From assembly GCA_963971405.1 (NCBI GenBank), contig OZ020491.1, forward strand, positions 31,423,019 through 31,487,018: a stretch of DNA of 64,000 bases, written 5' to 3'. Made by a program: the position numbers and the translations under genes. The notes below the pieces were generated by a model. It made no database searches. It was not told the DNA's origin and saw nothing but the letters and a program-made list of their open reading frames with translations. This DNA comes from Psococerastis gibbosa. Its lineage: Eukaryota; Arthropoda; Insecta; Psocodea; Psocidae. Shown here one piece after another: positions 4,147 to 64,000 of this stretch; position 1 is the stretch's first letter, and each line of letters opens with the position of its first letter.

Positions 4147-4151
4147 GTTGC

Positions 4152-6861: not shown

Positions 6862-6878
6862 CCAGGGTTGCGATACAA

Positions 6879-29463: not shown

Positions 29464-29479
29464 GAAACATTTTAGTACG

Positions 29480-42206: not shown

Positions 42207-42235
42207 CTGTTTGTATCAGACAGCACATGACTATG

Positions 42236-42400
42236 ACATAAAAAACCTATTAGCACACTTTCCTGACCAAACAATGTCCTCAGATTAGTTAAAAATTCTT
42301 AAACGTATCTGTGCTACCGTGCAATCAATGGGTCCGCGGAAAGAGATAATAAACTTGGACTTCAAGAAGTAGAATTTGACATACTAGTAGAAGAAGAAAC
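42236..42400 (+). pseudogene. Fragment of a mononegavirus-like L gene (pre-motif A and A)
   Basis: A short broken frame shows FPDQTMSSD, LKRICATV and then NLDFKK followed by a TAG where the neighbouring copy has a Trp codon (42370-42372). It precedes and partly duplicates the better copy at 42420-43211. It is an endogenous viral element of the polymerase gene, clearly dead. Confidence 0.7.
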
Positions 42401-42419
42401 CGCACTGAAAGGAATATTT

Positions 42420-43211
42420 ATGTTTAGATATCTTGTTTGCGATCATTTTTATACCAATTTCAAATCCAGATCACCTCCTCTCTACACATTTTGGAAAAAG
42501 CAGATATGGCCCGACAAAGTCCAAATTAGACAAATGGGGTACAAAGTTATTAAGGATGTGAAGCTTTTAAATGAGTTTTCCTTCAATTTTAGTGAAGTCA
42601 CCCCCGAACTTTTGAAGGATACCACTCTAGCAAGCCCTAGACAGAATTGGGCGGCCAAATTTGATCCGTGTGCGTTCCAGCGGTTGTACCAAAAACCACG
42701 GCCTTCGCTCAATAGGGAAGAAAAACGGACACATTATTTGTTATCAACGGAAGAGAATGCAACATACCGAAAAGTCATGGAGTGCGACCTCGGTTATCCC
42801 AGACACAACGTTGATGGAATTGCTGTAACCTGCAGGAAGGAGCAGAAGGTAAAGGGTATCAAACAAACCGCTCACCAACGCCTTCTCCAGACGGCTATGG
42901 AAAACAATATAAATTCATTCATCTTTAAATACATGCCAGATCAAACAATGTCAGATAGTGAACTAGAACTGACTAAGCGAATCTGCGCAGCTGTAAAAGG
43001 CCCAACTCTCCTGATGGAGATTCTCAGTTTGGACTTTAGCAAGTGGAATCTCACTTTCAGGCATTTCCTTGTTGCATTATTTGGTGCAGAGATTGATACT
43101 GTGCTCCAACTAAATGTAGAATTTGATAACAGAGAGTGTGTGAACAACGCTCTCTGCGCAAAACTGCTGTTATCCACGACTACCGGAATATTACCCCTGA
43201 AGGCGCTGTAG
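42420..43211 (+). pseudogene. Endogenous mononegavirus-like L polymerase fragment
   Basis: A 263-codon open piece of an RNA-virus L protein (RNA-dependent RNA polymerase). Visible segments in L order are PPLYTFWKKQIWPDKVQ, NFSEVTPELLKD, a KPRPSLNREE loop, TCRKEQKVKGI, MPDQTMSDSELELTKRIC, and RdRp motif A as LSLDFSKWN (43029-43049). I judge it closest to rhabdovirus-like L by eye. Motifs B and C are absent here but occur at 49.7 and 54.8 kb. Only this stretch is open; everything downstream is unrelated or decayed. A virus-derived genomic fossil of minus-strand RNA origin. Confidence 0.85.
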
Positions 43212-44096
43212 TGGTTGATGACCACATAGCGTCCTGGTTGGTCAGCACAGGAGTCGGCATTGGGAAAAGGAAAACTGACTGCCCATTGTAGCTAAACAGT
43301 CCACATCCCAACTTGTCGGTGAATGACATGAAATTTCATGTATTCCCACACAAACCAAGGAAACCATGAATTCTACAGCCGGGTTCTGAAAGCGTTTCAC
43401 GCACTCATGGAAAACCAATCACTTCGAGGCGACGCAACATGTAGGGACTATAAAAAAATTCGAATACCAGCTCCTGGTTCTCAGAACCTTTGAAAACGAA
43501 AGAATAAAGACGGTTGGAAAACCGAAGTTACCGAAGGTATAATGCCACTGGTTATCACGTCAGATGAAGCAAGCCAAGTTGGATGAAAAGATGACGACAG
43601 TTCTGAAGCTGGCGCTTATAATAATTTGAGTTTTGATTCAGTTTGGTAATTTTTTTACAATTTTTTTCAAATTACTAGATTCTCGTCAGTTGTATGAAAA
43701 AAGTAGATACAATTTATAATCCAGAATAATTTAGGACAAAACGTAAATATTTCTTACACAACTTCATTTCTTCAAAGCATGGTGGGGTAAGATTTATATT
43801 GACTTGTCGGGCACCGACAATCAGCTGAGACACCTGAGAGATACAATCTATATTGCAGTATTGGGAATGAATTATAATTATTTTGAGTAATAAAAAATCG
43901 GTCATACCGCTACGTGATGTCACTGATGTCTGCGATTGTTTTGATCCTCTCCACTGCGCGCGCAACTGGTTATGGCGCGAAAATTCAAACTGTCCTCACG
44001 CATATGATATAATAGTTCAATTGTGAACATAATGATAATAATATTTCTCCATACCGCCCACCTTGAAATCTATTTCAACTTCTAAGGGACGGCGGC
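43212..44096. other. Gap after the L fragment
   Basis: No gene. Broken frames at about 43340-43470 may be old retroelement or viral coding sequence, but I could not assign them. Confidence 0.35.
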
Positions 44097-44540
44097 CTAT
44101 TCCTCCATAGGTATAACGACCAGCTTATTGACAGGTCGAATAAGTTGACGACCGCGACTACGAACACGTACGACGCGAACGACCGAGTCAACTGGATTCT
44201 GAAATGCTTCTTCTACAATGCCAATAGGCCACGATAATGGGGCAGCGTCCATTTCTGTGACATACACCAAATCACCGGGTATCAGTTCGTGAAGATACGA
44301 CACTGACCACGCAAGCCAGAAGGCTTGAGACATCTGCTGAACTCTTCTCCAACGCTCCCTGATATTGACGTCATCATCAAACGTTTGTTCGGGCGGTGTC
44401 ATCATTTCTTCAACGGCGGTAGTAGTACTGCAGGAAATGGAAGTCAGAGGTTTGGCGATGCGAGGGACTCCCTCCTTTGGCGATGGAGGCGACGGGGCGA
44501 GAGCTGATCGGCCTGACCCAGCACGACATAAGTCAATCAA
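44097..44540 (-). pseudogene. BEL/Pao retrotransposon remnant, C-terminal pol (DUF5641-like)
   Basis: Minus frame of 147 codons, no ATG at its head. The segment RERWRRVQQMSQAFWLAWSV, SYLHELIPGDLVYV, PLSWPIGIVEEAF and VRVVRVRSRGRQLIRPVNKL is the C-terminal domain following the integrase in BEL/Pao elements; the usual spacer between SYLHEL and GDLVYV is shortened. The rest of pol is absent. A second copy with a small deletion lies at 55045-55470 in the duplicated segment. Confidence 0.82.
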
Positions 44541-44836
44541 TCAATTATATTAATAATTGATTAATAAATTTTTTGCGCATGGACGTGGGTACATTCCAGT
44601 TTATTTCCTTGCCCATCCGCTACGTAGAAAAAAGAACCAAGTAGTAAGCAGGAAATAAATCACTGTTACACGAACTGTATGACGATTTATCCCACTGAGC
44701 ATGCCATGAAAGTACATGCTAGTGCCATGCATATAAATGCGGAATTGATTCGGCAACTGCGTGCATAGAAATAACGAATCGCAATGATTTCAGGTATGTA
44801 ATATATTTCCATAATAATAATAATTTACGAAGTAAG

Positions 44837-44844
44837 CTTGGTGC
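44837..44844 (+). repeat. 8-bp target site duplication, left of hAT
   Basis: CTTGGTGC, repeated at 47704-47711 right of the element. Copy B has a single CTTGGTGC at the matching place (about 55779-55786). Confidence 0.95.
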
Positions 44845-44848
44845 TAGA

Positions 44849-44960
44849 GAATAAAATCCCGGGATCCCGAATCCCGAAATCCCGGGATCCCGGCCAATTT
44901 TCGATCCCGAAATCCCGGGATTTTCAACAGGACAATCCCGGGATTTTCGGGATTGCTAAA
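44849..44960. promoter_or_regulatory. Left subterminal CCCGGG palindrome cluster
   Basis: At least five ATCCCGGGAT or ATCCCGAAATCCC-type repeats. By analogy with hAT elements these are probably transposase-binding sites. The matching right cluster is at about 47610-47695. Confidence 0.6.
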
Positions 44961-45216
44961 AATGCAGAAAAACACAATGGCAGAAATCATTTTATGTGTA
45001 TTTATACAAAAAATACGAAAGATCACGTACAAATCGTACAATACACCATTAGTACCATGTATACGTGACTTTTGGCTGCTTTCGCACTTTTGCAGTGTCA
45101 GCGATTCGGCAGGTCAACAGGTGCGCCTGCGTCTGCCTGCATTCATTCTCTTTCATTTTCATTTAGTGTAGTTGTTGATTTAGTGCTGTGAGGACGATCA
45201 CGATAACGATATCAAT

Positions 45217-47475
45217 ATGGTAAGTAAAATATTCAAACACTTATTGGTTTTATTAAGCGTTCGGTTGTTTTGCCTCTGATCTGCATCTGCATCGTTAGAG
45301 TCTGGAGTTGTATAAGTATCATCTTAGGTCCGGACTCCGGAACGACACCTACCACTTAGCCCCTAACCTATTATCTATAATTATTGTCTTTTATAAGATT
45401 TAAAAAGTTTCTTTCGGAGCTACTGGAGAACTGAGTAAGTAGTATGTTTAACAATCATGTAAGGTGGATGTTGCATTGTTGCATTAATTAATTTTTTTTT
45501 TTAGAGTCAACCCAATCCTTCGTTTATTAAACACAAGAGAGATGCGGATCCATTGTCTCCATGGAGTCATTTCTTGATAGCTGCAGACGGCAAAAGTGCC
45601 CAGTGCAAAACTTGTAAGAGTATTCTCAAGACTCTTGGAGGATCTACGAAAGGCCTCCATGTACACTTAGAGGCAAAACATAAATTAAATCTAAAAAAAC
45701 AAGACGGCGGCTCGGCCGCACCAGCAACAGCTTCCCCTTCTACATCAAGCAAGCGTCAAAAAATCAGCGATTACATGTTGCCAGCACTAGACGATGGAAG
45801 TATAGAAGCTGTTTTAGCTAGAATGACAGCGCTTGACGGTATGCCCTTCAGGATTTTCGTTACATCTAAGGACTTGCGCAATTTGTTCCTGGCAAAGGGC
45901 TTTTCAAACTTGCCTAAATCTGAACCTACTATTAGAAGCAAAGTAATGAGCTACAGTTTGGTTGTGCGATCCAAAATAAAAGCCGAGCTGACACACCATA
46001 AGGCAATGGGACAACGCTTCAGTTTAACATTCGACGAGTGGACCTCTTCTGGAAACAAACGATTTATGAATGTCAACATTCATACTGGAGAGAAATCGTG
46101 GAGTTTGGGTTTAGTTAGGATTAAAGTTTCCCTAACTGCTGAAAACTGTCTGATACTTTTAGAAAGTCGCTTAGACTTATTTGGAATCTCTCTTAAGAAA
46201 GACGTGGTGGCCATCGTGACCGACGGTCCAAATGTTATGCTGAAGGTCGGGAGGTTGGTTGAAGCTGAGCATCAAGTTTGTTTTGCTCATGGTGTTCATT
46301 TAGCAGTTTTAGATGTTTTATACGGAAGGAAGTCGACAGAAACGACGCCACCTGCGTTGGCCGATTCGAATGAAAGTAGTGAGGACGAAGACGATGGTGA
46401 TGGTACGGACGGGCAATTTATTATTGACGATACGGTGCAAGAACCTTCGATGACTAAATTGACAACTTTTCGGAACATTAAAGAAGTAATTTGTAAGGTC
46501 AGGAAAGTTGTGAAATATTTTAAAAAATCGCCTTTAAAGGTAGACACAATATTGGAAGCGTATGTGATTGCAGAACACGGAGCCCCCCTGAGTTTACTGC
46601 TGGACTGTAAAACAAGATGGAACAGCCTTTTTACAATGCTTGAACGATTCATCAAACTGAAGTCTAGCATCCAAAAGGCCTTAATCGACTTAAAACATCC
46701 ATTTAAATTGGAGGAATCTGATTTTGATGTAATTGCAGAGGTGGTAGAGGTCCTGTTGCCCGTGAAGTTGACAGTTGAAGCTTTCTGTCGTTCGGACGCA
46801 AATTTATTCACCGCAGATGTGGCTCTTATTTTTCTGTTCAAAAAGTTAAGGAAATTAAACACGGCCTTTGCAACTGCAATGACTGAATCCTTAGTGGAAC
46901 GGGTTACAGAACGGCGGCGAAACGATCTATCTGGAGTGCTGGCATACTTACAAAACCCAGCAGCAAATGAACCTGAGGCTGATGAAGTGGGCCAAAAAGT
47001 AGTTGCCCTTTTTGCTCAACCAACAAAAGCCACCATCAGAAAAGTAATAATGTCTCTCGTGAAAAGAGTTGGTCTTTCAAACACAGAAGACGATCCGGTA
47101 CCTCATATGGTTGGTAAGGATCCCCAAGCCATACCCAAACCCAACCCTGTTCCGGTTTCAAATAAGGTAACCATGAAAAATGAGCTGGAGGAGGCAATCA
47201 AACAGAGCCTCCTTCCCATGAAGGAAGATTACTCATGCGACCTCTTAAAAACTATAAAAAAAGAAATGAACATATATGATGGCGGGCAACAACCCCGAGG
47301 AACAAATTTACAGAAAGCGTTTATTTGGCTGAAGACCATCCCTCCAACATCAATCGAGCCCGAGAGGGCTTTCTCGGCGGCGGCATACATAGGCACAAAA
47401 ATAAGGAGCCGTTTAAATGATGAAACACTAGACGTTCTATTATTTTTAAGAATCAACTTGCGGCAAAACGTGTAG
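45217..47475 (+). CDS. hAT transposase with BED zinc finger, two exons
   Basis: Exon 1 is just the ATG (45217-45219), followed by GTAAGT. The intron 45220-45504 ends in a T-rich tract and TTAG. Exon 2 opens at AGT and runs to 47475, giving about 657 residues; the open frame alone starts at no ATG. A BED finger (FLIAADGKSAQCKTCKSIL, then HVHLEAKH) lies near the N-terminus. The catalytic core shows LTFDEWTSSGN and AIVTDGPNVM. The hAT dimerisation region LKTIPPTSIEPERAFSAAAY and RSRLNDETLDVLLFLRIN is at the C-terminus. It would cut and paste the element. The exon model is inferred. Confidence 0.88.
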
Positions 47476-47609
47476 AAAGGGTATGTTTAATTTTCGACAT
47501 TAAATTTTTTGTTCAAGTTCAAGTTAATTATTTTTTTGTTGCAAAAAACACCTGTGAAATATGGCACTTTGTGTTTAAAGAGTAAAGACATACATGGTAG
47601 ATAAATACA

Positions 47610-47695
47610 TAATCCCGTTTCGGGATCCCGGGATCCCGGGATTGAGTCTAGCCAATCCCGGAATCCCGGGATTGGAAAAACCGTCCCGGGATTTT
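47610..47695. promoter_or_regulatory. Right subterminal CCCGGG palindrome cluster
   Basis: Repeated GGGATCCCGGGATCCCGGGA and AATCCCGGAATCCCGGGATT type sequences mirroring the left end. Probable transposase-binding sites. Confidence 0.6.
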
Positions 47696-47937
47696 ATTCT
47701 CTACTTGGTGCTCACTTGTGTTGTATCTAATAACAACCCCATTATTGTTAAATACCCTTGAACAGGAAGCACTGAGCTATGCTTTCCCTTAAATTGTGCA
47801 AGTTGTTTACTGATTTATTTTGCTTGGGTTTCACAGAATGATTCGGATTCAAGTTGGGGGGCTCTCCCCTCGATGAATTCAAGCGAGTCGTCGCTGGAGC
47901 GCCGGGAAAGGAGCTCACTAGCCGAAGACCGGCATTT

Positions 47938-48170
47938 TCAATGGGTTACTAAAAATGAACTTCGACTGCACTGTCGATTTGCCAATGACACAATTTTATA
48001 CATTCACGGACCAACTTGGGTAGATGTTCACGAAAAGGCTGCATCCACCCTTTCGAAAGTCAAGAACTGGCTGGACGAAAACCAGTTGACCTTGAACATA
48101 GCAAATCAGAATTTATGACGTTCAGTGCCACGTCAAAAAGAAAAGAAATCCTTTGCCAAGGAGGTAACCA
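47938..48170 (+). pseudogene. Non-LTR reverse transcriptase fragment
   Basis: It reads FQWVTKNELRLHCRFANDT and then ILYIHGPTW, VKNWLDENQLTLNI and, after a small frame change, KSEFMTFSATSK. This matches the RT catalytic box region (normally ADD, here AND, so inactive) and its downstream helix. A copy is at 57047-57279, and a more decayed one at 53860-53960 (and 62968-63068). Confidence 0.75.
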
Positions 48171-48227
48171 GGATGTGTTTTCAGATTATGGAAATCTTTT
48201 TGAAATTGAGAGAGTCGCTCACTAAGG

Positions 48228-48800
48228 GCAAGATTCATGACTCAATTGACAGAAAATTTTGCTACCCTTGGTTTAGAGATAAAACTTCCTGAAGCATAGT
48301 ACAGTAATAGATTCTTTGACTACAGGAAGGGAAGGTATATAGATGGAATCGCTGCGAGCCAGGCAGCTAAAAAATCAGTAGGTACTTGTTTCCTAGATAC
48401 AAATGAGGACATTCCTTCTTTATCTGATTTCGACATTATTGGGAGGGGGGGGGGGGTTGTAGCAAATAGACATCCCTTGCCAAAGAGATAACCAGGGTCT
48501 GGACAACACTGTCAAAAGTCTCTTCAATTATTTTCCCGACCAGACACTGTCAGCGAATTAGCTCACGGTCTTGAAAAGAATGTGTGCCACTCCATAGAAT
48601 ATAGGTCCTAAGAAATAATAAACCTAGACTTCCGAAAATGGAATCTCACCTTCAAGCATCTGTTGGTCGCCTTATTTGGGAGAGAACTTTATCTATTGTT
48701 TGGTTTCCTTTCCGAGACATAACCCATTTGTTTTATTATAAATTATGGAAATATTTCTGAGATTGAGAGAGCCAAAATAAGGGCCAGAATCAAGACGATT
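48228..48800 (+). pseudogene. Decayed L-gene fragments
   Basis: Two pieces in sequence. About 48228-48440 (LTENFATLGLEIKLPEA, YRKGRYIDGIAASQAAKK) resembles the part of L after motif C. About 48525-48740 shows LKRMCAT and motif A as NLDFRKWNLTF (48624-48644). Their order is inverted relative to an intact L gene, so they come from different copies or a rearrangement. Several stops. Duplicate at 57336-57908. Confidence 0.7.
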
Positions 48801-49609
48801 TTTTTACCTTCTGCAGTTTTTAATTAAATTTACCATGTAATGAGCACACTTTGACGTGTATTTCTTTATCAATAACTTGCTGGAAGACCTGGAAGTTTGA
48901 GTGACAGGACACAGGAAGGAAGATATAGCACATTTCAGTAACTATAAACATTGTATTCATCTGTCAATCCCAACATATAATGCGTCTTATCTACTTTAGA
49001 GGTGAAATAATCAAGGAATGTTTTAGGTAAGCCCATAATTGACATCTAAGTTTAGAGCCATTTTTTTTTAAATATTCTGCAACGGTAATAATAGTAGTAA
49101 TAAAAAAACGCGGTTTCTATAATATGATATTGTCCGGATTACACCAAACTTATTTTAGTTACCCCGACTTTCCCTATCCCACGGCACTAAATTGATCCGT
49201 GGGACAAGCTATTCAACCATTACCCAGAGGTGCAGCCAGTGGTACTTATATCAGTGGACGCAGGCCTAAATAAAAACACCTCCCCGGGTTAGGTCCATAA
49301 ACGAGGTATAAGTTCCGGACCTATATCACAGTCGAACTCTGCTTACTGAGATGTGAAGGGGGAGGGGGGGGGGGCTCATTATGGAAAATATAAAATAAGG
49401 GGTTTAAATCGAGACACTTTGTTCAATAAGGCTAGAAATGAATATTAGACTATGCATAAACCCTTGAAAATTATAAGACTGAGGAATTAACAATTGCAAA
49501 TGCTTATGTTCATAGGCAGGAATTAGATAACCTGCCCATTTTTAAGTACATGACATGATGGGCGGTGCGGTACATAAAGCAAACCTTTCGTCTGGCGCTT
49601 GGTACCAGA

Positions 49610-50240
49610 GGCGCCTATTTGGACTGAAATGCTTCTACCGAGATCAGCATTTATGGCATCTATTTGCTCTGATTTTATCTAACTCGCGATATCACCCATT
49701 ACCACAGCCTTGGAAATCCGATGGAAGGTCCCCATGCGTACACAGGATCCTTCGGGGGTTTGGAAGGGATGCGGCAGAAGCTATGGACGATCACAACACA
49801 ATGTATGTAATCCGTTTTGTTCGGTTTATTTTGAATATATTAGCAGATATGCTCGGACAAGGAGATAATCAGGACATCCTGTTGAAATAACAGCGTAATA
49901 TCGAAGACTGGCTTAGGGCTCACCTCTTACACCTACTACGGGAGTCGTTTGCGAAGATTGGATTCTCTAAAAGTTGAGGAAACGTGGTATAGCAAGAGGC
50001 CATTCGAATATGGAAAAGTACGGTAACTCAATGGGCTAGCCATGAGTCAAGCAACAGAAAAACTCTGTAGGTTTCTCCTGATTGCGAGGATGAATTTCCT
50101 AATACACTAACAAGCATTGAGACGATCAGCACTATTTCAGAGGGAGCTTCACGGTTTGACTCGACACCAACCGCTTGCACAGTCATTTATTCTAGGAGGA
50201 ACAATCGACATCTAACAATTGTAAGAAAAATATCCTACAG
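49610..50240 (+). pseudogene. L-gene fragment with RdRp motifs B and C
   Basis: Motif B reads GGLEGMRQKLWT (49754-49789) and motif C GQGDNQ (49855-49872), the GDN signature of mononegavirus L proteins, but in different frames. Farther on, EETWYSKRPFEYGK and LTSIETISTISEG fit the post-motif-C region. Motif C lies inside a 111-codon frame (49555-49890) that is otherwise out of phase with motif B. An endogenous viral fossil. Duplicate at 58718-59348. Confidence 0.82.
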
Positions 50241-50262
50241 AAACCGCCATGCGACTTTATTC

Positions 50263-50748
50263 ATGTGCGCTCCATATCACAACGGCAATGGTTCGCCAAC
50301 TGCGTCAATAGAATTTAGTTATTTCCAAATCACTTTGAAGGGACTGTTTTTGGTTTCCGCTCTATACCAAATTAACGCGGATTACATTTGCTGCAGGTTA
50401 GAAAATGTTAACTTTTGCGATATCTTCCATAGTTTTCGAGATATTCACTCAGAGAAGTCAGTAGTTTTGAAAAAAGAAGACAAAAAGAAAGCAAAGGACG
50501 ATCCTGCTTTCTTTTCGGGAAACTTCAATTTACAAGCTGTATTGTACATCCCCTTGTTTCTGGACAAGCCTCAATTTTACAAGAGAAAATTTGACACATC
50601 CAACTTTACTATATATATAATATCTTGCATTATCCCGCAGCCACTGTTAGATTTAGACCATTACAAAACCTGTCCACCGCGAGGACTGAGGCAAAGCACA
50701 GAGTTAGTAAATTGGTGGCCAAATTTTCCTGAAAGAGGAGAAACATGA
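50263..50748 (+). CDS. Unrecognised 161-codon ORF
   Basis: Open from ATG 50263 and preserved identically in copy B (59371-59856). It has a hydrophobic early stretch (FQITLKGLFLVSALYQI) and a basic KKEDKKKAKDD segment; no family is recognised. Part of its 3' half lies in the 1.4-kb tandem duplicate. It may be old viral or repeat coding sequence. Low confidence as a gene. Confidence 0.3.
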   Translation: MCAPYHNGNGSPTASIEFSYFQITLKGLFLVSALYQINADYICCRLENVNFCDIFHSFRDIHSEKSVVLKKEDKKKAKDDPAFFSGNFNLQAVLYIPLFLDKPQFYKRKFDTSNFTIYIISCIIPQPLLDLDHYKTCPPRGLRQSTELVNWWPNFPERGET

Positions 50749-52001
50749 CACTTACGTTGCTAAATAAATAAATTATTTTCTAGTAATGTACTACCCTATC
50801 CTATGAAAATGGAGCCTAAACTAAATATATTGGTCTAGATCTTTCGCCTCTTACTTGAAACACAAAGAGAGAGGCAAGAAAGAGAGAAGGGCCATAGCTT
50901 CAGCAAATATTTTCCTGAGGATGCCCCTTTACATCATAGAGGATTAGTTTCACTTAGCCCTTGGAAAAAGGCTCCCTGGGTCCACCATCTCTGTAGTCGT
51001 AGGAGGGGAAGAAAAGAAAGCCAAGATAATCTAGGTCTTCATGTGGGGCTTTACAATTATTGTATTTAAATTGTTCTATATTTAATACATTCATTCATTC
51101 ATCTTATGTCGAAGATACCATGTTAGGATCATGGCTTCAACCCTCAGTTCAAGCAACAGAGGATGCCACTAAGTGGAATGAATGCTTGTCACCTTCTGTT
51201 TTCTCTCTTATGCACGAGTGCATTATGGTACCTTTTTCTGACGACAAAGAAAGTCTGGATACCAGGAGATTAGTCTGGAATATTGCCCAGGGCGCACAGC
51301 AAGTACTAGTGCAAAGTACAACCGACTGGACTGCTGGGAAACTGATTCCATTGATAGGTTTAACACCAAAACACAGGAATGGCTGGCATAAGCAAGGCTA
51401 ATGATAAAGGTAAGGTATCTGGAATCGTCACCTGGCATGCTTATGGGGGTGTTGAACGCAGGAAATACCACCCTTCGCCTACTTGTCACCGGTTATGCTT
51501 TGAACAAAGAGCAAAAGGTGACGACAATGCGCTCAAACGATGATTCCGCAAGCATCTTTGTCAGTTGAAGAGCCATCGATGCAGTGGAAGTAAACAGAAA
51601 GCGCCTTTGTTTGATCGGTGTAAACCTACGCCTCGAAAAGACCTTTTTCTACCCACAGGGATACTCCGAATATTCGTCTTAAGTACCAAGAAAAAAAAGT
51701 TTCTGTCTCAATTTGGTGTAGAAACCTCCACTCTGAGGCCTCAGGGGAAAAACCCACAAGACGACTTAGGGGCACTAACCTGCGCCAAATAACAGATGAG
51801 TTTTCACGATTATGTCGATGTATTTGGTGGAGGTGAATTTCATCATGGCTCCGTCATGCAAAATATACAGCAAATGTTATAATTAGGTTCATGATAGGTG
51901 TTTATACACCTGTACACCTGCTTTATGGGTTTAAGACAATAGCTGTGTGAAAATACATTATGTTATGTTATGTTGAATTGTTAAAACAGCTAACCAAAGA
52001 A
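50585..52001 (+). repeat. Nested tandem duplicate, unit 1 (about 1.42 kb)
   Basis: Begins AAATTTGACACATCCAACTT and ends near TTGTTAAAACAGCTAACCAA. Nearly identical to the next unit. Both units hold an EDATKWNECLSPSVF frame (51060 onward) that I associate, with moderate confidence, with L proteins, and a frame beginning MKSHRCSGS. Confidence 0.9.
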
Positions 52002-53396
52002 AAAATTTGACACATCCAACTTTACTATATATATAATATCTTGCATTATCCCGCAGCCACTGTTAGATTTGGACCATTACAAAACCTGTCCACCGCGAGG
52101 ACTGAGGCAAAGCACAGAGTTAGTAAATTGGTGGCCAAATTTTCTTGAAAGAGGAGAAACATGACACTTACGTTGCTAAAACGTCACCAGTATACAGAAA
52201 ATAAATTATTTTTTAGTAATGTACTACCCTATCCTATGAAAATGGAGCCTAAACTAAATATATTGGTCTAGATCTTTCGCCTCTTACTTGAAACACAAAG
52301 AGAGAGGCAAGAAAGAGAGAAGGGCCATAGCTTCAGCAAATATTTTCCTGAGGATGCCCCTTTACATCATAGAGGATTAGTTTCACTTAGCCCTTGGAAA
52401 AAGGCTCCCTGGGTCCACCATCTCTGTAGTCGTAGGAGGGGAAGAAAAGAAAGCCAAGATAATCTAGGTCTTCATGTGGGGCTTTACAATTATTGTATTT
52501 AAATTGTTCTATATTTAATACATTCATTCATTCATCTTATGTCGAAGATACCATGTTAGGATCATGGCTTCAACCCTCAGTTCAAGCAACAGAGGATGCC
52601 ACTAAGTGGAATGAATGCTTGTCACCTTCTGTTTTCTCTCTTATGCACGAGTGCACTATGGTAACTTTTTCTGACGACAAAGAAAGTCTGGAATATTGCC
52701 CAGGGCCTACAGCAAGTACTAGTGCAAAGTACAACCGACTGGACTGCTGGGAAACTGATTCCATTGATAGGTTTAACACCAAAACACAGGAATGGTTGGC
52801 ATATGCAAGGCCAATGATAAAGGTAAGGTATCTGGAATCGTTATGGGGATGTTGAACGCAGGAAATACCACCCTTCGCCTACTTGTCGTCGGTTATGCTT
52901 TGAACAAACAGCAAAAGGTGTCGACTATGCGCTCAGGCGATGATTCCACAAGCATCTTTGTCAGTTGAAGAGCCATCGATGCAGTGGAAGTCAACAGAAA
53001 GAGCCTTTGTTTGATCGGTGTAAACCTACGCCTCGAAAAGACCTTTTTCTACCCACAGGGATACTCCGAATATACGTCTTAAGTACCAAGAAAAAAAAAG
53101 TTTCTGTCTCAATTTGGTGTAGAAACCTCCACTCTGAGGCCTCAGGGGAAAAACCCACAAGACGACTTAGGGGCACTAACCTGCGCCAAATAACAGATGA
53201 GTTTTCACGATTATGTCGATGTATTTGGTGGAGGTGAATTTCATCATGGCTCCGTCATGCAAAATATACAGCAAATGTTATAATATAGGTTCATGATAGG
53301 TGTTTATACACCTGTACACCTGCTTTATGGGTTTAAGACAATAGCTGTGTGAAAATACATTATGTTATGTTGAATTGTTAAAACACCTAACCAACG
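52002..53396 (+). repeat. Nested tandem duplicate, unit 2 (about 1.40 kb)
   Basis: Second unit, with small indels relative to unit 1 (for instance lacking a TACCAGGAGATTAGTCTGG stretch, and with an extra CGTCACCAGTATACAG early on). Corresponding units in copy B are at 59693-61109 and 61110-62504. Confidence 0.9.
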
Positions 53397-53439
53397 TATA
53401 TTACAAACTTCCATGGAGGCATAACATAATCCAATTTAT

Positions 53440-53800: not shown

Positions 53801-54137
53801 ACAGTGCCTGCCCAGTTCTATTTTTTATATATTTCAACTAAAAATGAACTGCACTGTCATAGGATTTGCCAATGACACAATTTTAAACATTCGCGGACCA
53901 ACTTGGGTAGAGTTCACGAAAATCCACATATCCACCCTTACGAAGGTCAAGCGTTTAAGCCAGCTGAGAAGACAAGTGCATTGGGTGTACTATTTGCGGG
54001 GATATTAGTGACTCAGTCTGTCACTGTAGCCACCATATTAAATATGGAGTTCTGCTCTTCCTGCATTGGAGAGGACTTTTTCTGTGGAAATGTGCCTGTA
54101 ACTTTGTCCCTCAATTGTACCTCTGAGGAATTCTATT

Positions 54138-54632
54138 TTGGAGTACATATTGCTATGCTTTCTCTTATTCAAAGGCAACATGAATAATTACATCAAATTA
54201 CATGATAAGCCTAAGCAATATTCGTGGTCTCAGGATATCCGTAATAGAAACGGACAATCAGCATTTAACGTGGACAAATATCACGTAGACGCTAGGCCTA
54301 TACGAGAAACAGGTGCCGTGGGAGTGCGTGAATGTTACCGTGGGTTCACCGAACATGTCACAATGATTGTTGAGATATTATTTTTTATATATAAAGTTAC
54401 ATACTTTATTTATAATTTTTATATAAGAACGCTGTTCCGGCACTATAGAATTAAATACCGTTATAATCGGGATGACACAATGGAAGGAATTTCCAATAGG
54501 CACCGCATGCAAACAAGAAACAGGACAATTACCGAACCTGTCAACGAAGAAGTGACGGTGGAAGAAGGAAACTACAAAATCACCGAACTTGTCTGGAACA
54601 TTGGTGATTTCAATAGTAAAAATACAATTTGA
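54138..54632 (+). CDS. Unrecognised 164-codon ORF
   Basis: Open and identical in copy B (63246-63740). A hydrophobic segment (MIVEILFFIYKVTYFIYNFY) is followed by an Arg/Tyr-rich stretch and an acidic end. No family is recognised. It overlaps another short frame (53903-54187). It lies between L-like fragments, so viral origin is possible but not shown. Confidence 0.3.
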   Translation: MEYILLCFLLFKGNMNNYIKLHDKPKQYSWSQDIRNRNGQSAFNVDKYHVDARPIRETGAVGVRECYRGFTEHVTMIVEILFFIYKVTYFIYNFYIRTLFRHYRIKYRYNRDDTMEGISNRHRMQTRNRTITEPVNEEVTVEEGNYKITELVWNIGDFNSKNTI

Positions 54633-54689
54633 TTTGCAAATTATGTAAATTCAAAACTCGTTCCGGGTAAGCATGCCAGGATCACGTCC

Positions 54690-54960
54690 CTGATCACTTT
54701 CTTGTAGCAATTTTCGGGGCAGAGTTAGATAAGCTATTTGGACTGAAATGCCTCTACCAAGATCAGCATTTAAGGTTTCGTTTTGCTCTGAACCAAGGAA
54801 ATCCGATGGAAAGTCTCTATGCGTACACAGGATTCTTCGGGGGTTTCGAAGGGATGCGGCAGAAGCTGTGGACGATCATAACACAATAATCCGTTGTGTT
54901 CGGTTTATTTTGAATATATTAGCAGATATGCTCGGACAAGGAGATAATCAGGTGATCCTG
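54690..54960 (+). pseudogene. Second L-gene fragment with motifs B and C
   Basis: LYAYTGFFGGFEGMRQKLWT (motif B, 54839-54874) and, in another frame, GQGDNQVILL (motif C, 54934-54951). This version keeps a Tyr-rich lead to motif B that is lost at 49.75 kb, so the two are separate copies. Its duplicate begins at 63798 and is cut by the window end. Confidence 0.82.
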
Positions 54961-55044
54961 TTGTAATATGACGAAAAACAGTGAAATAGTATAACCACAG
55001 TAACCCAAATCAAACAAAAATTAGGAATACTTGTTTGAGGACGT

Positions 55045-55470
55045 TTACGCACTAAACCTAAAAGGTATAACGACCAGCCTATTGACAGGTCGAATAAGTT
55101 GACGACCGCGACTACGAACACGTACGACGCGAACGACCGAGTCAACTGGATTCTGAAATGCTTCTTCTACAATGCCAATAGGCCACGATAATGGGGCAGC
55201 GTCCATTTCTGTGACATACACCAAATCACCGGGTATCAGTTCGTGAAGATACGACACTGACCACGCAAGCCAGAAGGCTTGAGACATCTGCTGAACTCTT
55301 CTCCAACGCTCCCTGATATTGACGTCATCATCAAACGTTTGTTCGGGCGGTGTCATCATTTCTTCAACGGCGCTAGTAGTACTGCAGGAAATGGAAGTCA
55401 GATCCCTCCTTTGGGGATGGAGGCGACGGGGCGAGAGCTGATCGGCCTGACCCAGCACGACATAAGTCAA
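55045..55470 (-). pseudogene. BEL/Pao remnant, copy B
   Basis: Same C-terminal pol segment as at 44097-44540. A deletion of about 36 bases removes part of the upstream linker (before SISCSTTSAVEEM), and scattered base changes occur. Confidence 0.8.
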
Positions 55471-56000
55471 TCAATCAATTATATTAATAATTGATTAATA
55501 AATTTTTTGCGCATGGACGTGGGTACATTCTAGTTTATTTCCTTGCCCATCCGCTACGTAGAAAAAAGAACCAAGTAGTAAGCAGGAAATAAATCACTGT
55601 TACACGAACTGTATGACGATTTATCCCACTGAGCATGCCATGAAAGTACATGCTAGTGCCATGCATATAAATGCGGAATTGATTCGGCAACTGCGTGCAT
55701 AGAAATAACGAATCGCAATGATTTCAGGTATGGAATATATTTCCATAATAATAATAATTTACGAAGTAAGCTTGGTGCTCACTTGTGTTGTATCTAATAA
55801 CAACCCCATTATTGTTAAATACCCTTGAACAGGAAGCACTGAGCTATGCTTTCCCTTAAATTGTGCAAGTTGTTTACTGATTTATTTTGCTTGGGTTTCA
55901 CAGAATGATTCGGATTCAAGTTGGGGGGCTCTCCCCTCGATGAATTCAAGCGAGTCGTCGCTGGAGCGCCGGGAAAGGAGCTCACTAGCCGAAGACCGGC

Positions 56001-57046
56001 ATCTTCATCTGATGAGGAGTCGCCACCTTACCTGGTACACAATTACTTCAGGTATATTTTTAGGTGTTAATTCAAGTAATAAAACCGAACAGATTGCTTT
56101 TCCCAACAAGAATTAAGAATTATTCTTGGAAGAAATTGGATAATTAATGCCTTAACGCATTGCATACCATGCCTTTATTACTGGGTTGTATCGTATGATA
56201 CAAGATAACAGGGCCATATTTGGCTTCATTCGAGTGACTCTGGTATGATCTGGACGCCTAGTCCCCGATTGGAGCTATATATCGTGTTATATTGAAATGG
56301 TCAACTATTAATTAGGAATAGGAGGAGCCCAAGCCATGTATTTGCCACCAAGCTATTATTGCGCGTACTTGAGTATGCCTTCTGTCATTCTGTGGTTGGG
56401 GAAGGGCAGCTTGAGCTCTGCCACGTGTTTTTTGCGCTAAATTTAAAATCTTATTGCTGTAATATGACATCCATATTCGTAAATATGGAACGAAAGTAGA
56501 AATTATATATTTCAAAAAAAAAAAAACTACCGCGTAATATCAAAGACTGGCTTAGAGCACAACTTTTACTACAGGAGTCGTTTGCCAAGCTTCGAATCCT
56601 TCAAAATTGAGCAAACTTGTTACAGCGGGAGACTATTCGAATATGGAAGTACGATATCTCAATGGGCTAGCCATGAGTCAATTAACAAAAAACTCTGTAG
56701 GTTGTCTCCTAATTGCGAATATGAATCTCGAAACCCACACGTCAAATCACAATCGCTATAAATGAAATTTAGAGTATGCAGAAACTTATGAATATTTTAA
56801 GACTGAGGCATGCAGTTGATGCCTTAAACTTTAACAAATTTAATTTAATCAATTTGAGAGTAGTTTCAGATATGAAGGCTTTAATTGAAAAATAGTTTTT
56901 TATTTATGTATAGGTATCTACGTCTACACCTAAGTATACGCATCTATACAGTATAGCATCTTTATTTTCCAGTATTATGCAATATGGCCACCACAGAGCA
57001 CAGTGCCTGCCCAGTTCTATTTTATATATATATATATCTATATATT
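56001..57046 (+). other. Segment present only in copy B, with an L-like fragment
   Basis: After the shared GAAGACCGGCAT, copy B continues with CTTCATCTGATGAGGAG while copy A jumps to the RT fragment. Positions 56528-56760 are related to 49893-50110 (RNIKDWL, YSGRLFEYG, QWASHESI), another post-motif-C L fragment. A deletion in A is the simpler reading, since the flank reads on naturally in B. Confidence 0.7.
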
Positions 57047-57279
57047 TCAATGGGTTACTAAAAATGAACTTCGACTCCACTGTCGATTTGCCAATGACAC
57101 AATTTTATACATTCACGGACCAACTTGGGTAGATGTTCACGAAAAGGCTGCATCCACCCTTTCGATAGTCAAGAACTGGCTGGACGAAAACCAGTTGACC
57201 TTGAACGTAGCAAATCAGAATTTATGACGTTCACTGCCACGTCAAAAAGAAAAGAAATCCCTTGCCAAGGAGGTAACCA
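57047..57279 (+). pseudogene. Non-LTR RT fragment, copy B
   Basis: Same as 47938-48170 with a few base changes. Confidence 0.72.
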
Positions 57280-57335
57280 GGATGTGTTTTCAGATTATGG
57301 AAATCTTTTTGAAATTGAGAGAGTCGCACACTAAG

Positions 57336-57908
57336 GGCAAGATTCATGACTCAATTGACAGAAAATTTTGCTACCCTTGGTTTAGAGATAAAACTTACTG
57401 AAGCATAGTACAGCAATAGATTCTTTGACTACAGGAAGGGAAGGTATATAGATGGAATCGCTGCGAGCCAGGCAGCTAAAAAATCAGTAGGTACTTGTTT
57501 CCTAGATACAAATGAGGACATTCCTACCTTATCTGATTTCGACATAATTGGGAGGGGGGGGGGGGTTGTAGCAAATAGACATCCCTTGCCAAAGAGATAA
57601 CCAGGGTCTGGACAACACTGTCAAAAGTCTCTTCAATTATTTTCCCGACCAGACACTGTCAGCGAATTAGCTCACGGTCTTGAAAAGAATGTGTGCCACT
57701 CCATAGAATATAGGTCCTAAGAAATAATAAACCTAGACTTCCGAAAATGGAATCTCACCTTCAAGCATCTGTTGGTCGCCTTATTTGGGAGAGAACTTTA
57801 TCTATTGTTTGGTTTCCTTTCCGAGACATAACCCATTTGTTTTATTATAAATTATGGAAATATTTCTGAGATTGAGAGAGCCAAAATAAGGGCCAGAATC
57901 AAGACGAT
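57336..57908 (+). pseudogene. Decayed L-gene fragments, copy B
   Basis: Duplicate of 48228-48800, with motif A at 57732-57752. Confidence 0.68.
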
Positions 57909-58717
57909 TTTTTTACCTTCTGCAGTTTTTAATTAAATTTACCATGTAATGAGCACACTTTGACGTGTATTTCTTTATCAATAACTTGCTGGAAGACCTG
58001 GAAGTTTGAGTGACAGGACACAGGAAGGAAGATATAGCACATTTCAGTAACTATAAACATTGTATTCATCTGTCAATCCCAACATATAATGCGTCTTATC
58101 TACTTTAGAGGTGAAATAATCAAGGAATGTTTTAGGTAAGCCCATAATTGACATCTAAGTTTAGAGCCATTTTTTTTTAAATATTCTGCAACGGTAATAA
58201 TAGTAGTAATAAAAAAACGCGGTTTCTATAATATGATATTGTCCGGATTACACCAAACTTATTTTAGTTACCCCGACTTTCCCTATCCCACGGCACTAAA
58301 TTGATCCGTGGGACAAGCTATTCAACCATTACCCAGAGGTGCAGCCAGTGGTACTTATATCAGTGGACGCAGGCCTAAATAAAAACACCTCCCCGGGTTA
58401 GGTCCATAAACGAGGTATAAGTTCCGGACCTATATCACAGTCGAACTCTGCTTACTGAGATGTGAAGGGGGAGGGGGGGGGGCTCATTATGGAAAATATA
58501 AAATAGGGGGTTTAAATCGAGACACTTTGTTCAATAAGGCTAGAAATGAATATTAGACTATGCATAAACCCTTGAAAATTATAAGACTGAGGAATTAACA
58601 ATTGCAAATGCTTATGTTAATAGGCAGGAATTAGATAACCTGCCCATTTTTAAGTACATGACATGATGGGCGGTGCGGTACATAAAGCCAACCTTTCGTC
58701 TGGCGCTTGGTACCAGA

Positions 58718-59348
58718 GGCGCCTATTTGGACTGAAATGCTTCTACCGAGATCAGCATTTATGGCATCTATTTGCTCTGATTTTATCTAACTCGCGATAT
58801 CACCCATTACCACAGCCTTGGAAATCCGATGGAAGGTCCCCATGCGTACACAGGATCCTTCGGGGGTTTGGAAGGGATGCGGCAGAAGCTATGGACGATC
58901 ACAACACAATGTATGTAATCCGTTTTGTTCGGTTTATTTTGAATATATTAGCAGATATGCTCGGACAAGGAGATAATCAGGACATCCTGTTGAAATAACA
59001 GCGTAATATCGAAGACTGGCTTAGGGCTCACCTCTTACACCTACTACGGGAGTCGTTTGCGAAGATTGGATTCTCTAAAAGTTGAGGAAACGTGGTATAG
59101 CAAGAGGCCATTCGAATATGGAAAAGTACGGTAACTCAATGGGCTAGCCATGAGTCAAGCAACAGAAAAACTCTGTAGGTTTCTCCTGATTGCGAGGATG
59201 AATTTCCTAATACACTAACAAGCATTGAGACGATCAGCACTATTTCAGAGGGAGCTTCACGGTTTGACTCGACACCAACCGCTTGCACAGTCATTTATTC
59301 TAGGAGGAACAATCGACATCTAACAATTGTAAGAAAAATATCCTACAG
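58718..59348 (+). pseudogene. L-gene fragment with motifs B and C, copy B
   Basis: Duplicate of 49610-50240; motif C at 58963-58980. Confidence 0.8.
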
Positions 59349-59692
59349 AAACCGCCATGCGACTTTATTCATGTGCGCTCCATATCACAACGGCAATGGT
59401 TCGCCAACTGCGTCAATAGAATTTAGTTATTTCCAAATCACTTTGAAGGGACTGTTTTTGGTTTCCGCTCTATACCAAATTAACGCGGATTACATTTGCT
59501 GCAGGTTAGAAAATGTTAACTTTTGCGATATCTTCCATAGTTTTCGAGATATTCACTCAGAGAAGTCAGTAGTTTTGAAAAAAGAAGACAAAAAGAAAGC
59601 AAAGGACGATCCTGCTTTCTTTTCGGGAAACTTCAATTTACAAGCTGTATTGTACATCCCCTTGTTTCTGGACAAGCCTCAATTTTACAAGA

Positions 59693-62504
59693 GAAAATTT
59701 GACACATCCAACTTTACTATATATATAATATCTTGCATTATCCCGCAGCCACTGTTAGATTTAGACCATTACAAAACCTGTCCACCGCGAGGACTGAGGC
59801 AAAGCACAGAGTTAGTAAATTGGTGGCCAAATTTTCCTGAAAGAGGAGAAACATGACACTTACGTTGCTAAATAAATAAATTATTTTCTAGTAATGTACT
59901 ACCCTATCCTATGAAAATGGAGCCTAAACTAAATATATTGGTCTAGATCTTTCGCCTCTTACTTGAAACACAAAGAGAGAGGCAAGAAAGAGAGAAGGGC
60001 CATAGCTTCAGCAAATATTTTCCTGAGGATGCCCCTTTACATCATAGAGGATTAGTTTCACTTAGCCCTTGGAAAAAGGCTCCCTGGGTCCACCATCTCT
60101 GTAGTCGTAGGAGGGGAAGAAAAGAAAGCCAAGATAATCTAGGTCTTCATGTGGGGCTTTACAATTATTGTATTTAAATTGTTCTATATTTAATACATTC
60201 ATTCATTCATCTTATGTCGAAGATACCATGTTAGGATCATGGCTTCAACCCTCAGTTCAAGCAACAGAGGATGCCACTAAGTGGAATGAATGCTTGTCAC
60301 CTTCTGTTTTCTCTCTTATGCACGAGTGCATTATGGTACCTTTTTCTGACGACAAAGAAAGTCTGGATACCAGGAGATTAGTCTGGAATATTGCCCAGGG
60401 CGCACAGCAAGTACTAGTGCAAAGTACAACCGACTGGACTGCTGGGAAACTGATTCCATTGATAGGTTTAACACCAAAACACAGGAATGGCTGGCATAAG
60501 CAAGGCTAATGATAAAGGTAAGGTATCTGGAATCGTCACCTGGCATGCTTATGGGGGTGTTGAACGCAGGAAATACCACCCTTCGCCTACTTGTCACCGG
60601 TTATGCTTTGAACAAAGAGCAAAAGGTGACGACAATGCGCTCAAACGATGATTCCGCAAGCATCTTTGTCAGTTGAAGAGCCATCGATGCAGTGGAAGTA
60701 AACAGAAAGCGCCTTTGTTTGATCGGTGTAAACCTACGCCTCGAAAAGACCTTTTTCTACCCACAGGGATACTCCGAATATTCGTCTTAAGTACCAAGAA
60801 AAAAAAGTTTCTGTCTCAATTTGGTGTAGAAACCTCCACTCTGAGGCCTCAGGGGAAAAACCCACAAGACGACTTAGGGGCACTAACCTGCGCCAAATAA
60901 CAGATGAGTTTTCACGATTATGTCGATGTATTTGGTGGAGGTGAATTTCATCATGGCTCCGTCATGCAAAATATACAGCAAATGTTATAATTAGGTTCAT
61001 GATAGGTGTTTATACACCTGTACACCTGCTTTATGGGTTTAAGACAATAGCTGTGTGAAAATACATTATGTTATGTTATGTTGAATTGTTAAAACAGCTA
61101 ACCAAAGAAAAAATTTGACACATCCAACTTTACTATATATATAATATCTTGCATTATCCCGCAGCCACTGTTAGATTTGGACCATTACAAAACCTGTCCA
61201 CCGCGAGGACTGAGGCAAAGCACAGAGTTAGTAAATTGGTGGCCAAATTTTCTTGAAAGAGGAGAAACATGACACTTACGTTGCTAAAACGTCACCAGTA
61301 TACAGAAAATAAATTATTTTTTAGTAATGTACTACCCTATCCTATGAAAATGGAGCCTAAACTAAATATATTGGTCTAGATCTTTCGCCTCTTACTTGAA
61401 ACACAAAGAGAGAGGCAAGAAAGAGAGAAGGGCCATAGCTTCAGCAAATATTTTCCTGAGGATGCCCCTTTACATCATAGAGGATTAGTTTCACTTAGCC
61501 CTTGGAAAAAGGCTCCCTGGGTCCACCATCTCTGTAGTCGTAGGAGGGGAAGAAAAGAAAGCCAAGATAATCTAGGTCTTCATGTGGGGCTTTACAATTA
61601 TTGTATTTAAATTGTTCTATATTTAATACATTCATTCATTCATCTTATGTCGAAGATACCATGTTAGGATCATGGCTTCAACCCTCAGTTCAAGCAACAG
61701 AGGATGCCACTAAGTGGAATGAATGCTTGTCACCTTCTGTTTTCTCTCTTATGCACGAGTGCACTATGGTAACTTTTTCTGACGACAAAGAAAGTCTGGA
61801 ATATTGCCCAGGGCCTACAGCAAGTACTAGTGCAAAGTACAACCGACTGGACTGCTGGGAAACTGATTCCATTGATAGGTTTAACACCAAAACACAGGAA
61901 TGGTTGGCATATGCAAGGCCAATGATAAAGGTAAGGTATCTGGAATCGTTATGGGGATGTTGAACGCAGGAAATACCACCCTTCGCCTACTTGTCGTCGG
62001 TTATGCTTTGAACAAACAGCAAAAGGTGTCGACTATGCGCTCAGGCGATGATTCCACAAGCATCTTTGTCAGTTGAAGAGCCATCGATGCAGTGGAAGTC
62101 AACAGAAAGAGCCTTTGTTTGATCGGTGTAAACCTACGCCTCGAAAAGACCTTTTTCTACCCACAGGGATACTCCGAATATACGTCTTAAGTACCAAGAA
62201 AAAAAAAGTTTCTGTCTCAATTTGGTGTAGAAACCTCCACTCTGAGGCCTCAGGGGAAAAACCCACAAGACGACTTAGGGGCACTAACCTGCGCCAAATA
62301 ACAGATGAGTTTTCACGATTATGTCGATGTATTTGGTGGAGGTGAATTTCATCATGGCTCCGTCATGCAAAATATACAGCAAATGTTATAATATAGGTTC
62401 ATGATAGGTGTTTATACACCTGTACACCTGCTTTATGGGTTTAAGACAATAGCTGTGTGAAAATACATTATGTTATGTTGAATTGTTAAAACACCTAACC
62501 AACG
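59693..62504 (+). repeat. Nested 1.4-kb tandem pair, copy B
   Basis: Units at 59693-61109 and 61110-62504, matching 50585-52001 and 52002-53396. The unit-specific indels are conserved, so the small duplication preceded the large one. Confidence 0.88.
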
Positions 62505-62547
62505 TATATTACAAACTTCCATGGAGGCATAACATAATCCAATTTAT

Positions 62548-62908
62548 TTTCAAGTATTTCCCCGATTAGACAATTGTCGGACTCTGAACTGGAGTTGACA
62601 AATTTTAGTGTAACACCAGAGCTCATAAAAAAAGCTGCTTTAGCCAGTAGTAGACCAACTGGGCACTGTGCATTCTCAGCAAAAAAACCTCGACCAACCT
62701 TTAATCAAGAGGGGAAAATGACCATCCTGCATTACTTAATGTCTACAGACGAATACGCTAGGTGATGGAGTGTGATTTATTGCTCAGTTGCAGTAAGGAG
62801 CAACTAAAAAGCGAGAAAACAGCCAGCCAAGGTTTATTACAAACCTCCATGGAGAATAAAGTCAACAAATTTATTTTCTAGTATCCCGCAACCAGGCAAA
62901 TATAAAGC
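62548..62908 (+). pseudogene. Rearranged L-gene fragment, copy B
   Basis: Duplicate of 53440-53800. Confidence 0.7.
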
Positions 62909-63797
62909 ACAGTGCCTGCCCAGTTCTATTTTTTATATATTTCAACTAAAAATGAACTGCACTGTCATAGGATTTGCCAATGACACAATTTTAAACATTC
63001 GCGGACCAACTTGGGTAGAGTTCACGAAAATCCACATATCCACCCTTACGAAGGTCAAGCGTTTAAGCCAGCTGAGAAGACAAGTGCATTGGGTGTACTA
63101 TTTGCGGGGATATTAGTGACTCAGTCTGTCACTGTAGCCACCATATTAAATATGGAGTTCTGCTCTTCCTGCATTGGAGAGGACTTTTTCTGTGGAAATG
63201 TGCCTGTAACTTTGTCCCTCAATTGTACCTCTGAGGAATTCTATTTTGGAGTACATATTGCTATGCTTTCTCTTATTCAAAGGCAACATGAATAATTACA
63301 TCAAATTACATGATAAGCCTAAGCAATATTCGTGGTCTCAGGATATCCGTAATAGAAACGGACAATCAGCATTTAACGTGGACAAATATCACGTAGACGC
63401 TAGGCCTATACGAGAAACAGGTGCCGTGGGAGTGCGTGAATGTTACCGTGGGTTCACCGAACATGTCACAATGATTGTTGAGATATTATTTTTTATATAT
63501 AAAGTTACATACTTTATTTATAATTTTTATATAAGAACGCTGTTCCGGCACTATAGAATTAAATACCGTTATAATCGGGATGACACAATGGAAGGAATTT
63601 CCAATAGGCACCGCATGCAAACAAGAAACAGGACAATTACCGAACCTGTCAACGAAGAAGTGACGGTGGAAGAAGGAAACTACAAAATCACCGAACTTGT
63701 CTGGAACATTGGTGATTTCAATAGTAAAAATACAATTTGATTTGCAAATTATGTAAATTCAAAACTCGTTCCGGGTAAGCATGCCAGGATCACGTCC

Positions 63798-64000
63798 CTG
63801 ATCACTTTCTTGTAGCAATTTTCGGGGCAGAGTTAGATAAGCTATTTGGACTGAAATGCCTCTACCAAGATCAGCATTTAAGGTTTCGTTTTGCTCTGAA
63901 CCAAGGAAATCCGATGGAAAGTCTCTATGCGTACACAGGATTCTTCGGGGGTTTCGAAGGGATGCGGCAGAAGCTGTGGACGATCATAACACAATAATCC
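63798..64000 (+). pseudogene. L-gene fragment with motif B, cut by window end
   Basis: Duplicate of the start of 54690-54960; motif B at 63947-63982. Confidence 0.78.

Follow-up and report, generated by a model that had tools for sequence, protein, structure and literature searches.

An endogenous cluster of mononegavirus-type L and orthomyxovirus PB1 fossils, in part tandemly amplified, in the insect Psococerastis gibbosa

Clusters of viral fossils are already known from arthropod genomes, and the locus described here belongs to the known clusters of nonretroviral endogenous viral elements (EVEs). It lies in a stretch of 64,000 nt of the Psococerastis gibbosa genome (assembly GCA_963971405.1, contig OZ020491.1, here C19, of 35.3 Mb; C19:31423019-31487018), which we call the window. 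It holds decayed pieces of two polymerases of negative-strand RNA viruses, an L protein of mononegavirus type and the PB1 protein of an orthomyxovirus. We explain the locus best, with a probability of about 0.87, as a nonretroviral EVE cluster in an arthropod chromosome, formed by several polymerase captures, decay and local duplication at three levels.

In Aedes, nonretroviral EVEs, or nonretroviral integrated RNA virus sequences (NIRVS), include flavivirus and rhabdovirus pieces that are often less than 10 kb apart, and their clusters contain rearranged or duplicated sequence beside Gypsy and Pao long terminal repeat (LTR) elements, partly in clusters that produce PIWI-interacting RNA (piRNA) (PMC7448346, PMC6379468). 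As excerpts of these reports describe them, the Aedes clusters resemble the present locus in having clustered, rearranged or duplicated virus pieces near LTR-element pieces. The present locus differs in that PB1 and an L of another viral order are joined in one 9.1-kb unit, present six times. Orthomyxovirus-like EVEs have been described in Campodea augens (seven fragments, all of PB1; PMC6938034), in ticks (PB1, nucleoprotein and hemagglutinin; PMC10675110) and in the firefly Photinus pyralis (PMC6191289). The excerpted accounts of these likewise concern broken orthomyxovirus pieces in arthropod genomes, whereas here two PB1 lineages occur on one contig, each within about 0.4 kb of an L piece, and one of them is amplified. 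In mosquitoes, BEL/Pao elements have chuvirus EVEs next to them, so that there too negative-strand virus genes adjoin this kind of element; according to the part of the report seen (PMC7642597), most of these EVEs (409 of 428) are glycoprotein genes that the element carries, whereas here polymerase pieces stand beside a small DUF5641 remnant, glycoprotein genes not having been searched for.

In the arthropod survey by Li et al. 2015 (PMC4384744), Table 5 credits Aedes aegypti and Bombyx mori with RdRp (RNA-dependent RNA polymerase) EVEs of both chuviruses and quaranjaviruses, and other species with RdRp EVEs of mononegaviruses; the portion consulted gives presence by species and no mixed tandem arrays. 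Excerpts of the open-licence literature on EVE duplication, arrays, inverted repeats and unequal crossing-over did not reveal any evident earlier case of EVEs in a tandem or two-armed array, which is not proof of absence. The window cluster shows which repeats look like fresh captures and which like later copying, and a simple test of codon positions at one locus separates the two.

L and PB1 fossils in the window

Open pieces of 42-57 kb (coordinates without a contig name are those of the window) were listed, and part of them was run against Pfam, with PF00946 (Mononeg_RNA_pol) as the L profile and PF00602 (Flu_PB1) as the PB1 profile. A further 60 kb to the right of the window was examined too, giving 124 kb in total. 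The best L piece of the window, 42303-43211, matched PF00946 with an E of 1.7e-12 (profile positions 399-627). Matches were also obtained at 49673-49807 (E 3.3e-7) and at 54671-54889 (E 5.8e-6, in bits under the curated cut-off), and weakly at 48612-48719 (E 0.051). In one batch of 10 L pieces, 2 matched this profile and 8 did not.

RdRp motif A was found at 42355 (as LDFKK followed by a stop), 43029 and 48624, and motif B at 49754 and 54839; for motif C, the positions 49855 and 54934 are those of GQGD, which precedes GDNQ by two codons. All seven positions had been given in the initial annotation and hold, with the two for motif C marking GQGD. Over 41901-57044 in six frames, GDNQ, LDF.KWN and GG.EGMRQKLW occurred twice each, compared with means of 0.05, 0 and 0 in 200 single-base shuffles. 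The proposal of mononegavirus L fossils in the same annotation is borne out by the three significant profile matches; similarity to L was detected, and it was not the case that all best matches were non-viral. These pieces are, to judge from profile and motifs, genuine fossils of a mononegavirus-type L.

Searches of the Protein Data Bank (PDB) with pieces of the window gave weak matches, unrelated ones or none; those of the L pieces were weak (E 1.3; the best, 0.0012, between the piece at 54671-54968 and L chain 7yer). The best PDB match of L040, another locus with L of the window type, was weak as well (E 0.015); L040 itself matched PF00946 with an E of 2.3e-14. Protein searches for relatives among 476, 7 and 1140 candidates gave none at threshold. 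Scans of viral contigs found no relative either, and since a strong rhabdovirus-like piece also drew a blank, these scans are little informative on such viruses.

One L region is present in the window as four partial copies on the plus strand, which we call alpha0, alpha, beta and gamma. They stand in series, are split by insertions and keep the viral order, except for a repeated pre-A stretch that heads gamma; the scrambled order described earlier was thus not confirmed. Alpha0 (41937-42384) runs from the pre-A region to motif A. Amino acids 194-252 of alpha matched it by tblastn at 42211-42384 (46%, E 2.3e-8), and a piece of L040 matched 42211-42345 (62%, E 1.7e-13) and 41937-41981 (93% over 15 amino acids, E 0.001), the last being weak evidence for its left end. 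Alpha0 encloses an interspersed repeat at 41994-42207, which has a 93.5% inverted match to 11340-11551 and another copy, at 85%, about 53 kb to the right of the window. Alpha (42303-43211) is partial, yet open for 302 codons; its L homology extends over about 42387-43100, from the upstream region to motif A, and pieces of L040 match 42387-42728 (36%) and 42744-42998 (53%).

Beta (48463-50103), assigned by PF00946 and motifs, contains the pre-A region, motifs A, B and C and the post-C region in viral order and in broken frames. Gamma begins at 53345-53776 with upstream and pre-A sequence, the latter partly repeated. This piece had no Pfam match and was recognized by tblastn with alpha at 53493-53681 (46%, E 5.3e-8) and 53648-53776 (47%, E 4.8e-6). 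It is followed by motifs B and C at 54671-54968 and by a post-C piece at 56483-56762, which did not match PF00946 and of which 56529-56729 is 80.5% identical to beta 49890-50098. Stops or frame changes were present in alpha0, beta and gamma, and the fossils are surrounded by repeats of the host and pieces of transposable elements (TEs) on one of its chromosomes. The open reading frames (ORFs) 50071-50745 and 54102-54629 matched no Pfam family.

Two PB1 copies, PB1a and PB1b, occupy 50.8-53.3 kb between beta and gamma, on the plus strand. They were missed at the first reading, and their profile matches rule out that all fragments are L. PB1a (50825-51883; motifs named by eye) matched PF00602 at 50825-50944 (E 1.1e-4, profile 224-259) and 51030-51401 (E 0.0019, profile 301-328), and in the genome search at profile 224-286 and 371-505. 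PB1b (52258-53293) matched at 52463-52852 (E 0.0045), and in the genome search at profile 224-286 and 402-529 (E 6.6e-6 and 1.1e-6). The matches are thus colinear over the RdRp region. In one batch of 10 pieces, 2 matched PF00602 and the rest, the motif B and C pieces included, did not.

In the PDB, two PB1 pieces had top chains named "RNA polymerase catalytic subunit", which we take to be influenza PB1, at colinear positions 225-256 (E 0.62) and 299-325 (E 0.058); two other PB1 pieces had no such match. No match to PF00602 was seen in 14 control genomes. A Flu_PA profile found nothing in the genome, where no positive control was scored, so that absence is not shown. The second kind of virus in the cluster is, by its profile matches, an orthomyxovirus (influenza family), represented by PB1.

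The six-unit array and the codon-position test

All viral pieces other than alpha0 and alpha belong to a 9.1-kb unit that is repeated six times in tandem. The units start at 47936, 57045, 66153, 75263, 82944 and 92057, and the array ends near 97.9 kb. The core of unit 1 (47936-54968, plus strand) contains beta, both PB1 copies and a portion of gamma, and is 99.80% identical to unit 2. Unit 2 (57045-64000 in the window, plus strand) repeats 47936-54892 at 99.8% and continues past the window, followed by units 3-6. Orthomyxovirus PB1 fills about 2.1 kb of every full unit. Identity among the six units is 99.40-99.97%. Over about 7032 sites, 14 mismatches separate unit 1 from each of units 2, 3 and 5, and 2 separate any two of the latter. 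A common truncation marks units 4 and 6, which differ at 2 of 4666 sites, and full and truncated units are 99.40-99.72% identical. Units 3+4 and 5+6 are offset by 16,794 bp, a higher-order period of 16.8 kb. Viral pieces have therefore been amplified locally at this locus.

Inside the unit, PB1a and PB1b belong to an inner tandem duplication on the plus strand at 50581-53394 (50581-51996 and 51997-53394), with 25 mismatches plus gaps in 1436 columns. An apparent boundary from L to a putative reverse transcriptase (RT) piece is common to beta and gamma: 53748-53834 resembles 56946-57033 (77%), and 53762-53951 resembles 56961-57173 (74%).

If two copies split within the host without constraint, their differences are expected to fall equally on codon positions 1, 2 and 3. 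We counted these differences and ran 2000 neutral simulations for each pair. For alpha and gamma the counts were 41/25/82 (p 2.9e-8), and the amino acid identity of 0.58, against a simulated mean of 0.29, was reached in none of the simulations. The observed identity was likewise never reached for alpha and beta (21/14/34, p 0.0044), for alpha and alpha0 (25/17/36, p 0.013), or for PB1b and a PB1 fossil at 31.708 Mb of the same contig (16/3/57, p 1.3e-13). In contrast, it was attained in 312 of 2000 simulations for beta and gamma (13/9/16, p 0.16) and in 837 of 2000 for PB1a and PB1b (10/3/5, p 0.77). An earlier run with other alignments of the same pieces agreed for its five pairs.

Alpha and beta/gamma are best read, on their excess of third-position differences and an amino acid identity above the neutral one, as separate captures, and so are the PB1 of the cluster and the PB1 190 kb away. 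Beta/gamma and PB1a/PB1b are best read as duplications within the host, which the neutral pattern fits. With gaps excluded, beta and gamma differ by about 50 substitutions in 435 sites (19 in 235 plus 31 in 200), and PB1a and PB1b by 25 in about 1380. Divergence is thus greatest for beta/gamma, lower for PB1a/PB1b and lowest for the array units, and therefore the order of events was beta/gamma, the PB1 tandem and the array; the results are divergences only, without ages in years.

Several captures or local amplification had been suggested at the outset. The six-unit array establishes the amplification and the codon test favours several captures, so that the repeats probably stem from both. Independent versions of the L region through 64 kb were not upheld: counting them up to that point is ruled out by the array repeat in 57045-64000. 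The extent first proposed, 42236-64000, does contain L fossils, but the cluster starts at 42211, or on weak evidence at 41937, and ends at about 97.9 kb, 34 kb past the window.

Origin of the cluster

In the explanation that we prefer, viral polymerase RNAs would have been reverse-transcribed by host retroelements and inserted more than once in a TE-rich region. The captured sequences would comprise one PB1 of an orthomyxovirus and two or more related L lineages of mononegavirus type, namely alpha and beta/gamma, to which alpha0 may add another. The fossils are broken by retrotransposon pieces and by a later hAT-type transposon, and would have decayed without coding constraint, to which the duplicated pairs fit. 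Directly visible in the sequence are these interruptions, the identities, the codon-position pattern and the structure of the units. Duplication would have acted first on beta/gamma, then on PB1a/PB1b, and then on the 9.1-kb composite unit, giving six units with the 16.8-kb period. The unit structure suggests unequal crossing-over as the simplest route to the tandem amplification.

A single capture followed by decay could account for the overlapping part of L covered by every window copy and for a TAG that alpha0 and beta have at one common column (42211-42384 against 48502-48615). We consider it quite unlikely for all copies, given the third-position excess of alpha against alpha0, beta and gamma and amino acid identities above those of all 2000 simulations. 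Domestication of alpha as a host gene derived from a viral L would explain its 302 stop-free codons (4e-9 by base composition; the longest run in 2000 single-base shuffles was 156) and its conserved-protein pattern against relatives. Recent capture accounts for both alike, and motifs B and C lie outside the frame, which makes domestication very unlikely. That the array is an artefact of assembly, by haplotype duplication or mis-joining of repeats, also seems quite improbable: the near-identity of units 2, 3 and 5 would fit it, but unit 1 differs from each of them and has the sole hAT copy, units 4 and 6 have a common truncation within the 16,794-bp period, and the older repeats of beta/gamma and PB1a/PB1b are independent of the array.

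The initial annotation likened the locus to piRNA clusters. It may be one that makes piRNAs, its virus pieces being retained and multiplied for the silencing of related viruses by their transcripts, but we lean to this less than to neutral duplication. The locus is dense in EVE and TE remnants, a feature that is not specific to such clusters; every L or PB1 piece recognized in the window reads on the plus strand, and one site shows what appears to be repeated capture together with tandem amplification. In Aedes albopictus, 138 of 456 nonretroviral EVEs overlap piRNA clusters (PMC7448346), and in Chaoborus putative piRNAs are enriched on the transcript of a chu-like L that is partial and pseudogenised (PMC8963322), as the excerpts seen report. 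However, neutral drift and unequal crossing-over account for the same anatomy, and for most copies the single orientation is trivial because of the tandem duplication.

Several points weigh against several captures with three-level duplication. The TAG common to alpha0 and beta may reflect an old duplication instead of separate capture; between these two, a third-position excess was seen in one stretch (16/7/25, p 0.006), and another gave 3/3/6 (p 0.18). The excess is modest for alpha-alpha0 (36 of 78) and alpha-beta (34 of 69), and host selection on a kept copy could also give a conserved-protein pattern. The scored stretches are the alignable ones, which favours conserved segments, and the simulations lack that filter; the two neutral pairs passed the same filter, but are less diverged. 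The captures are putative events, told apart by their codon pattern. In the PDB, the PB1 pieces have weak matches or none, and the array is read from the assembly.

Related fossils and neighbouring elements

In the genome-wide profile search, which reads through stop codons, all 21 PF00602 matches (30 of 30 candidates scored) fell on C19. Eight were in the window, 20 were within the cluster (31,473,855-31,518,453), and one was at 31,708,130. The last belongs to another PB1 fossil (positions 4523-5455 of locus L021, C19:31.707-31.708 Mb), which was probably captured separately, as its codon pattern suggests. A same-strand L piece lies 0.3-0.4 kb from it (PF00946 E 0.001, under the curated cut-off; 72.6% identical over 62 amino acids to L040), so that each of the two PB1 loci detected in this genome has an L fossil next to it. 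At either locus, a polymerase fossil of the influenza family and one of another negative-strand virus are no more than 0.4 kb apart.

With alpha as protein query, 23 matches were obtained across the genome (29 of 29 candidates scored). Of these, 14 belong to the present cluster, while contig C13 has 3 and contig C14 has 6. The six on C14 form a second cluster of window-type L fossils (C14:40721471-40773291). The PF00946 search gave at least 47 matches (43 of 124 candidates scored), one at C13:17,958,637 and 46 on contig C20. The window's own L pieces were not among the matches listed, which another lineage fills. The C13 fossil (L001) had VSV (vesicular stomatitis virus) L as its best PDB match (E 2.8e-60).

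The C20 matches belong to a 108-kb head-to-head array (C20:15613557-15722021; loci L023-L026 and L028-L035) whose units measure 1,458 bp. Each unit includes a rhabdovirus-like L piece, and some 500 of its bases resemble the C13 fossil. It has 36 near-full minus-strand units up to 15,668,190 and 36 plus-strand units from 15,668,191, with part units besides. Compared with one plus-arm unit, identity is 96.0-96.9% in the minus arm and 96.7-100% in the plus arm. One C20 unit as query gave no nucleotide match to the window. This two-armed array is possibly the more unusual feature of the two and may be a new form of EVE array; a transcript reading through it would form long double-stranded RNA. The host might amplify captured polymerase pieces, in the L/PB1 array and on C20, as heritable antiviral templates. 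We regard this as rather unlikely; if true, copy number and the two-armed layout would be selected traits and not accidents. The locus points to a genome in which virus fossils turn into tandem arrays, and it can serve to study whether EVE copy number is favoured in arthropods as a means of RNA-based defence.

As a sign of an arthropod host we took the 105 genome matches of Chitin_bind_4 (118 of 118 candidates scored), a family that marks arthropod cuticle. Of the BEL/Pao and non-LTR RT pieces reported at first, the former were supported by DUF5641 (PF18701), which we take to be the end of a BEL/Pao-type polyprotein, on the minus strand at 44097-44540 (E 1.6e-13) and, between the gamma pieces, at 55045-55470 (E 3.2e-13). 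Support for the latter was weak. A likely non-LTR RT remnant, recognized by eye, lies at 47948-48300 (plus strand; 82.8% to 53837-53951), with related remnants at 53837-53951 and 57057-57409, so that such a piece sits before beta and after the pre-A piece of gamma. Over four RT pieces RVT_1 gave one weak match (56934-57224, E 0.15) and none for 47936-48115, 47989-48222 and 53700-54005.

The hAT-type DNA transposon (44846-47703, ends approximate, plus strand) has a 656-amino-acid ORF at 45505-47475 with zf-BED (E 5.6e-6) and Dimer_Tnp_hAT (E 1.4e-4). It is present in unit 1 only, as a single copy in the 124 kb, and its flanks match the hAT-free 55063-56007.

The window also contains larger elements. 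A Polinton/adintovirus-like element at 999-10916 has long open frames with an integrase core (E 5.2e-10), an A32-type packaging ATPase (8.3e-9) and a double jelly-roll capsid (2e-92); its 1345-amino-acid ORF, a DNA polymerase by eye, had Endonuclease_7 as its sole Pfam match. A further large-virus-like set at 12112-18009 includes DNA polymerase B (E 3.5e-12) and, as a weak match, a packaging ATPase (0.0006). A Copia retrotransposon with an open frame of 1193 amino acids lies on the minus strand at 25912-29490.

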